Shown one piece after another: positions 17,738-63,715 of a stretch of DNA of 64,000 nucleotides. The stretch lies in assembly GCF_000526155.1 (NCBI RefSeq), contig NZ_JAFN01000001.1, forward strand, positions 624,501-688,500. The letters are read 5' to 3'. The translations under genes and the position numbers were made by a program. The notes beneath the pieces are model-generated. The model did no database searches. It had not been told where the DNA came from and saw nothing but the letters and a program-made list of their open reading frames with translations. Within the stretch, counting starts at the first letter, position 1. Each line of letters opens with the position of its first letter. Source of the stretch: Deferrisoma camini S3R1 (GTDB lineage Bacteria > Desulfobacterota > Deferrisomatia > Deferrisomatales > Deferrisomataceae).

Positions 17738-17797
17738 TTGGGCCTTCGGCCCGCTAGGACGCTAGGAAGCTGGGAGGCTAGGAGGCTTGAAAACCTC
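17738..17797. repeat. Hairpin plus 8-bp-period array after a stop codon
   Basis: GGGCCTTCGGCCC (17740-17752) can form a hairpin directly downstream of the stop at 17725. Five exact octamers follow (17753-17792, units such as GCTAGGAA and GCTGGGAG) and the tail AAAACCTC. It is the same composite as 6508-6566. The hairpin could act as an RNA end or terminator, but no T-run follows. Confidence 0.8.
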
Positions 17798-17873
17798 CTT
17801 GATCTCCGAGCATTCCAAGCACAGCCACGCCTCTTTGTTACCACCTCACAGTCCGGGGGGCATGGGGTCTGCC

Positions 17874-18046
17874 GGAGAGCCGGGCGCGGCTCCTATGCTC
17901 GCCGCGCAGTGCCTCCTGCGTCCGGACCGCGAAATGGTACCCCTTGCACGCAGCTGTGATGAAACCAACTCCCCTGTCCTGTGCCTGCGCGGCGAATCTC
18001 AACGCCCGGCTTCGCGCACGGCCGGAGGCAGACCCCATGCCCCGCC
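17874..18046 (+). repeat. Diverged copy of the core of the 268-bp inverted-repeat element
   Basis: This 173-bp stretch aligns without gaps to 43821-43993, with about 32 differences by eye (about 81% identity). Shared landmarks are GGAGAGCCGGGCGCGG at the start, GGACCGCGAAATGGT in the middle, and CGGCCGGAGGCAG near the end. The outer arms and terminal repeats of the full element are not recognisable here, so this copy is probably degraded. Confidence 0.8.
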
Positions 18047-18123
18047 GCCGGCAACGGCCCCGGACCCCATCAGTTACCTTCCCTTGTTGCCCGGCCCCGC
18101 GGGGGCCTGAGGGGGCTTCCTCG

Positions 18124-18147
18124 CCTCCCAGCTTCCCAGCCTCCTAG
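18124..18147. repeat. 8-bp-period array (complement orientation) upstream of lexA
   Basis: Three exact octamers (CCTCCCAG, CTTCCCAG, CCTCCTAG) end 10 bp before the lexA -35 element. They are the reverse complement of the array at 17753, so the intergenic gap is bracketed by an inverted pair. Confidence 0.75.
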
Positions 18148-18157
18148 CCCTCCATCC

Positions 18158-42231: not shown

Positions 42232-42789
42232 GTGAGCCGCCCTAGGCCGCCGGAGCCGGCGTTCGTGGTGATGGGGGTGCTGGTGGCCGCGGCGGTGGAC
42301 CCGGGCGCCGTGATGGACCGCATCGAGGCCGGGTTCGGACCGGCCCGGTCCTCCACGCCGTGGCTGCCCTTCGACTCGACCCGGTACTACGAGCGGGAGA
42401 TGGGCCCGGGCATCCGCCGCGCATTCCTCTGGCTGGGGGAGCCGGTGGACCCCTCGACCCTGGCCGACCTGAAGGAGCGCTCCAACCGCCTGGAGGGCGC
42501 GTGGACGGACCCGCAGGGGCGACGCCGGGTCAACCTGGATCCGGGCGTCCTGGGGCTCGCGAACCTGGTCCTGGCCACCGGCAAGCCCGCGGCCCACCGC
42601 GTCTACCTGGCCCGGGGCATCTACGCCGAGGTGGAGTACCGGTTCGAGCGGGGTTCGTTCCGTCCCCTGCCGTGGACCTATCCCGACTACCGGGCCCCAG
42701 AGACGATCGCGTTTTTCAACCGGGTGCGCGAGTCGTACCGCCAATGGCGGGCGCGGCGCGCCCCAAGCGCTGAGGAACGATCCCCATGA
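42232..42789 (+). CDS. DUF4416 family protein
   Basis: 185 residues from a GTG with GGAGGGGAG upstream. The family's conserved blocks are visible: FDSTRYYEREMG (about 46), LGEPVDPSTLADLKERSNRLE and RRVNLDPGVLGLANLVLAT (about 100), then YARGIYAEVEY-type LARGIYAEVEYRFERG. The function is unknown; members are common in Desulfobacterota and related phyla, often near yicC. The last 4 bp overlap the yicC start (ATGA). Confidence 0.88.
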   Translation: MSRPRPPEPAFVVMGVLVAAAVDPGAVMDRIEAGFGPARSSTPWLPFDSTRYYEREMGPGIRRAFLWLGEPVDPSTLADLKERSNRLEGAWTDPQGRRRVNLDPGVLGLANLVLATGKPAAHRVYLARGIYAEVEYRFERGSFRPLPWTYPDYRAPETIAFFNRVRESYRQWRARRAPSAEERSP

Positions 42790-43670
42790 TCCGGAGCATG
42801 ACAGGGTACGGCCGGGCCGAGGCCGAGGTGCTGGGAAGGTGGCTCACGGTCGAGATCAAGACCGTCAACCACCGGTTCTTGAACTTCAACGCACGGCTGC
42901 CCGGCGATCTGCAGCGGTTCGAGCATCAGATCCTCGGCCGGGTGAAGGAGCGGCTCCAGAGGGGCCAGGTGAACCTGTTCGCCGGCTGGGACGCGGCAGG
43001 GGCCGAGTGCCCGCCCGTGGTGATCAACCGCGAGGCGGCCCGGCGGGCGGCCGACCTGCTCCAGGAGGTGGCCCGGCACGTGGGCATCGAGGCCGAGGTT
43101 CGGCTGGAGCACCTGCTCGCGTTCCCCGCCGTGACCATGCCCGGGGGGCTGGCCGCGGACGCCGAGACCCTGTGGGAGGGGGTGGCGGCCCTGGTGGATC
43201 AGGCCCTGCAGGATCTGCAGGCCTTCCGGGAGCGGGAGGGGAACGATCTGGCCCGGGACATGGGTGAGCGGGTGGACGCCATCGAGGCCCACGTGGCCGA
43301 GATCGATCGGCTGCGGCCGGGGGTGCTCGAGGCCTACCGGGAGCGGCTCGCCCGCCGGGTCGAGGAGCTGGCCAGGGAGGTGCCGGAGGGGGACCTCCAC
43401 GCCCGGCTGGCCATGGAGGTGGCCCTGTTCGCCGACCGGAGCGACATCTCCGAGGAGGTGGTGCGGCTGCGCAGCCACATCGAGAAGTTCCGGGAGCTCC
43501 TGGCGGCAGGCGGCGTGGTGGGCCGGAAGCTGGAGTTCCTGCTCCAGGAGATGAACCGCGAGACCAACACCATCGGCTCCAAGGCCTCGGACGCCGAGAT
43601 CAGCCGCCGTGTAGTGGACATCAAGGCCGAGCTCGAGAAGATCCGGGAGCAGGTGCAGAATGTGGAGTGA
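42786..43670 (+). CDS. yicC: YicC-family endoribonuclease
   Basis: 294 residues. YicC N-terminal domain MIRSMTGYGRAEAEV and VEIKTVNHRFLNFNARLP; C-terminal DUF1732 end with LAMEVALFADRSDISEEVVRLRSHIEKF and FLLQEMNRETNTIGSKASD (about 250). The E. coli YicC is an endoribonuclease. It is the last gene of the long plus-strand block; no terminator hairpin with a T-run follows. In many genomes gmk (guanylate kinase) comes next, but here a repeat-filled gap and dnaE follow. Confidence 0.93.
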   Translation: MIRSMTGYGRAEAEVLGRWLTVEIKTVNHRFLNFNARLPGDLQRFEHQILGRVKERLQRGQVNLFAGWDAAGAECPPVVINREAARRAADLLQEVARHVGIEAEVRLEHLLAFPAVTMPGGLAADAETLWEGVAALVDQALQDLQAFREREGNDLARDMGERVDAIEAHVAEIDRLRPGVLEAYRERLARRVEELAREVPEGDLHARLAMEVALFADRSDISEEVVRLRSHIEKFRELLAAGGVVGRKLEFLLQEMNRETNTIGSKASDAEISRRVVDIKAELEKIREQVQNVE

Positions 43671-43714
43671 GGGCGGTCCACGGTCGCCGGTCCACGGTCC
43701 GGGCAACGGCTGGG

Positions 43715-44049
43715 CCTCCCAGCCTCCCAGCTTCCCGGCCTTCTAGCCTTCTAGCATTCTATTAACCCGGCGGATAAACAGGCGCTATCGCTCCCTGCTC
43801 GGCGGGGCAAGGGACCTGTCGGAGAGCCGGGCGCGGCCCCTTAGCTCGCCGCGCAGTGTCTCTGATGCTTGGACCGCGAAATGGTTCGGATTCCACATAG
43901 TTGCCATGAAACCAGATCTTCAGTCCCGTGCCTGCGCGGCGAATCTCAATGCCCGGCTTCGCGCCCGGCCGGAGGCAGGTCCCTTGCCCCGCCCTCCAAG
44001 GTGACGCGCCTATTTTGTCGCCGGGTTAACTAGCTTTCCAGCCTTCCAG
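43715..44049. repeat. Octamer array before dnaE, interrupted by the inverted-repeat element
   Basis: Eight 8-bp units of the form CYTYCYRG run up to 12 bp before the dnaE ATG. Five complete units fill 43715-43754. The sixth begins CATTCTA at 43755-43761 and is completed by the G at 44033, after the inserted element and a second CTA. Two more units follow at 44034-44049. With the element and one CTA removed the 8-bp period is exact. Confidence 0.85.
43762..44029. mobile_element. 268-bp MITE-like inverted-repeat element with CTA target duplication
   Basis: Ends are perfect 11-bp inverted repeats, TTAACCCGGCG (43762-43772) and CGCCGGGTTAA (44019-44029), which continue imperfectly to about 50 bp. 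A second perfect pair, GGCGGGGCAAGGG (43801-43813) and CCCTTGCCCCGCC (43981-43993), marks the inner end of the arms. CTA lies directly outside both ends (43759-43761 and 44030-44032). No protein frame is credible inside. A transposase acting in trans is inferred. Confidence 0.8.
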
Positions 44050-44060
44050 CCGAGAATCCC

Positions 44061-47555
<3,495 letters not shown>

Positions 47556-54040: not shown

Positions 54041-54090
54041 GCCCGGCGGACAAACAGGTGCTATCGCTCCCTGCTCGGAGGGGCACGAGG
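54041..54090 (+). repeat. Left-arm fragment of the 268-bp inverted-repeat element
   Basis: CCCGGCGGACAAACAGG and CTATCGCTCCCTGCTCGG match the left arm of the element at 43766-43802 with few changes. Similarity stops after the GGGGCACGAGG that corresponds to the inner inverted repeat. The right arm is not found nearby, so this is a truncated copy. Confidence 0.7.
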
Positions 54091-54113
54091 CCTTGGCGTC
54101 GGGGCTCGGGAGC

Positions 54114-63526: not shown

Positions 63527-63712
63527 GTATTGCCAGGGTACGGGGTGGAGGCCTGGGATTCAGGAGCCAGAGGTCAGAAGACAGAAGTTCGGGCAGATTC
63601 TCTCCTGTCCACTGCCCTCTGGATTCTGTCTCCTGATACGGCCGCACCCGGCGCTCCACCAGACCCCCACCCCGTACTCCCCAAGGGGAAGGGGGCACGG
63701 GCCTGACAATAC
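63527..63712. repeat. 186-bp inverted-repeat element, second type
   Basis: The ends are GTATTGCCAGG (63527-63537) and CCTGACAATAC (63702-63712), inverted with one mismatch. A further inner pair, GGGTACGGGGTGG (about 63536-63548) and CCACCCCGTACTCC, follows the same axis. Its interior has CAGAAGACAGAAG-type degenerate repeats in opposite orientations, also found at 54338-54425. No protein frame is credible. No clear target duplication is seen. Confidence 0.6.
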
Positions 63713-63715
63713 TTT

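Follow-up and report, generated by a model that had tools for sequence, protein, structure and literature searches.

The closest described counterpart of the element considered here is RUP of Streptococcus pneumoniae, a repeat of 107 bp that is described together with IS630-Spn1 (PMC2229807). The two are alike in being short, intergenic and multicopy, in having ends that resemble those of a resident IS630 element, in their TA target and in their capacity to fold back (PMC2229807). They differ in length (107 bp as against 268 bp), the present element belongs to a distantly related bacterium, and its core is found with other ends as well. By description, the Correia/NEMIS repeats of Neisseria (PMC2229807) are also similar, with terminal inverted repeats (TIRs) of about 24 bp, a terminal TA, a stable stem-loop and many intergenic copies. 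The IS630 family (NF033545) includes both the presumed helper, here called IS-A, and a second group, IS-C, whereas the 268-bp element has no transposase.

Judged from its sequence, the element represents a new family within a known class, the IS630-type MITE. The possession of a core that is common to several transposon ends is a less familiar variant, one that we did not find described in the open-license literature, where no paper was found to report a single core with different ends. Because the core is shared across end types, the element is counted here as a variant and not just as a further member.

The 268-bp element and its putative helper

The element lies in the spacer between a gene that is presumably YicC-like, named as such from family knowledge, and dnaE, in a window (the whole stretch analyzed) of 64,000 nucleotides (Table 1). 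An initial annotation had described a MITE-like element of 268 bp with perfect 11-bp inverted ends, and its coordinates and ends are confirmed. The ends TTAACCCGGCG and CGCCGGGTTAA form perfect 11-bp inverted repeats, the 24-nt arms to which they belong are 83% complementary, and the exact 11-mer is found in the window at the two element ends only. With one mismatch allowed, it occurs at six window sites compared with 0.9 expected, a number that was reached in none of the shuffles. Folding of the element is far above that of shuffles on both strands (z of -7.1 and -9.4). A search for TTAACCCGGCGN followed after 200-230 nt by CGCCGGGTTAA gave no matches; the corresponding spacer of the 268-bp element is 246 nt, outside that range.

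Table 1. Coordinates of the element, its surroundings and related copies in the window
Feature	Positions	Strand	Remarks
A-type MITE (268 bp), IS630-type ends, foldback	43762..44029	+	full-length copies in own genome, 82-97% identity
Left terminal inverted repeat, outer 11 bp perfect	43762..43785	+	matches IS-A ends
Right terminal inverted repeat	44006..44029	-	read inward, 23 of the first 25 letters agree with the IS-A right end
TA, left copy of target duplication	43760..43761	.	CTA of the initial annotation, 43759-43761
TA, right copy of target duplication	44031..44032	.	one extra C (44030) just before it
Core hairpin cassette, about 187 nt	43804..43990	+	common to B-, C- and D/E-ended elements
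8-bp-period array, left part	43714..43761	+	
8-bp-period array, right part	44030..44051	+	
Upstream gene, YicC-like	42786..43670	+	
Downstream gene, dnaE	44061..47555	+	name from initial annotation and sequence
Other core copy, flank E on the left and D on the right, an 8-bp array on either side	17851..18046	+	
Truncated A-type left end and start of core	54041..54093	+	
Partial C-type element, left part	63640..63715	-	G000:688140-688215

Searches for further copies and for a transposase gene with the same ends had been proposed with the initial annotation, and both were successful. Many copies with the same boundaries exist in the genome itself (4,236,551 bp) and in relatives. Two species of the same genus also carry many, and A-ended copies with another core subtype are present in one species that belongs to the family but to a different genus; outside the family, just one of the other relatives searched gave matches, all weak and partial. 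The census of cores covered 60 stretches of 20 kb and the window (1.264 Mb, ~30% of the genome), in which the core model detects 76 places; 51 are near full length. Scaled to the whole genome, these counts become roughly 250 and 170, respectively. The boundaries shared by many copies, the empty sites in two sister species and the presence of an autonomous IS630 element with matching ends all bear out the MITE-like reading. The family has the properties of a prokaryotic type II MITE, being short, bounded by a 24-nt TIR, non-coding and transposase-free, similar to IS-A at the ends only and multicopy, with a target duplication and an empty site. In common with RUP, it shares its ends with a resident IS630 insertion sequence, and the duplicated target is TA.

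The family had at first gone unrecognized, but it can be identified by its ends, which match those of an IS630-family insertion sequence of the host genome. The end-pattern search returned four pairs, all of them copies of this insertion sequence; three span ~1.1 kb and the fourth 3.2 kb. IS-A is 1,107 bp long with an intact transposase of 345 amino acids (NF033545, E 3.5e-73; PF13358, E 7e-38); of its four copies, three are intact, and the fourth is interrupted by an insertion with an IS4 transposase gene. The stretch with the split copy (L134, G000:716000-720400) also holds an IS200-like Y1 transposase gene. A search of the genome for the IS630 family found two groups only, IS-A and IS-C. 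The latter has three copies, with TA-flanked ends, CTAAGACCTTCAAAAGTATTGCC and its counterpart, that are similar to the ends of the C-type core copies.

The element is very probably a non-autonomous IS630-type (Tc1/mariner-like) MITE, inserted at TA by an IS630 transposase and carrying a core of ~190 nt that is not end-specific and was probably captured and later converted. It is one of dozens of related elements, which a transposase of known type probably mobilizes, and we infer that this is the IS-A enzyme or a close relative. The ends, TTAACCCGGCG, would be recognized by an IS630 transposase encoded at another place in the genome, which would cut the element out and insert it at a TA dinucleotide that is duplicated in the process; for the window copy, the target would have been CTAG within an array octamer upstream of dnaE. 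The presence of the core within other end types would be due to capture, probably, and then to gene conversion between cores. The present IS-A may not itself have spread the MITE copies because its own copies are at least 99.4% identical to one another, whereas the MITE copies differ by 3-18%. IS-A was absent from searches of the sister genomes G001 and G002, although both have the MITE; these are draft assemblies, which often drop repeats.

A core shared between end types

The foldback core of ~190 nt occurs with end types A (IS630-A ends, TA target), B, C (the second IS630 group, IS-C, TA target) and D/E. Type B ends in TACCAAGTTGC and shows a 3-bp TNA duplication in 12 of 18 pairs, some of which are B-ended elements that lack the core. 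The D/E-ended cores are a further candidate class beside A, B and C. For the B ends, no exact pair was found at a plausible distance with a transposase, and a PF01609 search for their autonomous partner returned only seven IS4 copies and one protein of 467 amino acids. Arrays of 7-bp period (CGGTCGT type) adjoin D-type cores. A further MITE family is represented by units of ~221 bp with B-like ends and a different interior (L163:18284-18504, L196:4466-4688 and L203:1221-1440).

The chances are about even that cores are alike across end types only via gene conversion, following an ancient shared origin, and that the core has no role. An A-ended copy (L026) and a B-ended one (L234) are near-identical for about 185 nt and diverge abruptly on both sides, the pattern that a conversion tract limited by homology should leave, and A-B chimeric copies exist. 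Placed on a tree of 110 cores, the end types require at least 18 changes compared with a mean of 43 with shuffled labels; they are therefore clustered yet not separate. However, conversion leaves unexplained both the first arrival of the core between unrelated end pairs and the conservation of an internal loop within it. Gene conversion between cores, as far as the sequences indicate, accounts for their later similarity only and not for the original arrival. Chimeric copies with A on the left and B on the right (L204:18685-18928, L197:5268-5523, L022, L021 and L030) showed no target duplication where inspected by eye. Another chimeric A-B copy, L018 (G000:3619292-3619527), has a 13-bp direct repeat, CGGTCAGGCCTCT, on both flanks.

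The core might instead be the actual unit, a module of structured RNA or of single-stranded DNA under selection that is spread by whatever transposase ends it has acquired, although we think this rather unlikely. The occurrence of the same core with A, B, C and D/E ends is in its favor, as is strong covariation. The consensus fold of 39 aligned cores has 35 pairs, 15 of them with changes on both sides; 98.1% of cells are paired, 133 cells are compensatory compared with 41 in shuffles, and the covariation score of 0.302 (0.123 in shuffles) collapses on any slide. A GGA/GGA internal loop is largely conserved. Against this, correction between palindrome arms could yield covariation without selection, and the signal may reflect either selection on the fold or homogenization between the arms. 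On the 110-core tree, a strand test with the expectation set from base rates in unpaired columns gave a C-to-T (to G-U) share for G-C pairs of 0.66, equal to the 0.66 expected, with no excess over G-to-A. The test does not establish an RNA function for the core. The smaller set of A-U pairs does lean toward G-U (17 of 21 events, p 0.003). No Rfam family reached its gathering score, which again speaks against a structured unit; the best matches, MIR1437 (E 0.051) and P10 (E 0.081), were below threshold and were rejected as chance.

A further conjecture, which we consider unlikely, is that the core is a second-order parasite, its fold under selection, that spreads by pairing with several unrelated types of transposon ends (two IS630 groups with TA targets and one other type with a 3-bp TNA duplication) and is the property of none of them.

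Insertion, target duplication and the array

The reading of the locus as a non-autonomous IS630-type MITE can be followed to the insertion itself. The initial annotation had claimed an insertion event inside one octamer of the array and had pointed to empty sites in sister genomes as the check; removal of the element and one CTA does restore the octamer register, and two sister species, G001 and G002, lack the element at this site. A MAG contig (L054), which is the closest relative when upstream proteins are compared (97% identity), has the same array without it, and the same sequence was present in G002 in the search of relatives. G003 yielded no readable spacer in the comparison of these genomes; the exact length match comes from G001, in which the array, measured from GGCCTCCC through GCCGAG, is as long as that in the window minus 271 bp, as an insertion predicts. 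The target octamer of G001 is different, with GCCTTTCA in place of the GCATTCTA predicted for the window, and the exact letters before insertion are therefore deduced from the window itself.

The claim of a 3-bp CTA duplication fared less well. CTA is indeed found on both sides (the right copy at 44030-44032), which is what would be seen if this were a family with 3-bp target sites, but such a reading is very improbable. There is no 3-bp signal at any tested offset, and the family-wide duplicate is TA: for 31 A-ended copies, including four of the IS, TA stands on both sides in 15, and identical 3-mers are found in at most one at any tested offset. A copy inside another array (L007) has CTA on its left but ATA on its right, and IS-A copies have TA flanks only. 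One of these (L137) interrupts a core paralogue at CCTTAGCTC and is flanked by the duplicated TA; the same site is uninterrupted in other core paralogues. Where IS-A predicts the duplicate to lie, all four IS copies and 11 of the 27 MITE copies have TA on either side; the remaining 16 MITE copies count against an explanation by TA and IS-A. The window copy must be treated as a putative TA duplicate with one extra C, a one-base irregularity for the TA model. That the ends are chance inverted repeats of a repetitive, G+C-rich spacer can be dismissed, for although the genome is 70% G+C and rich in repeats, there are empty sites, a matching IS and full-length copies elsewhere, the last of which refute it.

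TA occurs 10.7 times per kb in the genome sample compared with 22.4 expected from base composition, and CTAG 0.56 times compared with 2.75 (stretches L154-L213 plus the window), an approximately five-fold depletion; the octamer-pattern arrays contain 35 TA and 30 CTAG per kb. Intergenic arrays of 8-bp period (GCCTTCTA type) gave 123 pattern matches in the 1.264-Mb sample, examples in the window being 43714-44051 and 17752-18149. Flanks with a 7- or 8-bp period are found for 7 of 28 copies, as against 66 of 4000 random TA sites. The richness of the arrays in CTAG and TA may help to explain the landing site, and part of the excess in arrays may be due to their being intergenic, insertions into genes presumably having been lost.

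The locus provides a clean example of the insertion of an IS630-type MITE into a tandem array, complete with empty sites in sister species, and the TA and CTAG content of such arrays is a possible reason why they gather insertions in a G+C-rich genome. Should the core be more than a relic of gene conversion, the interior of a MITE can outlive its transposase and switch to another, which, if true, would bear on the origin and persistence of MITE families.
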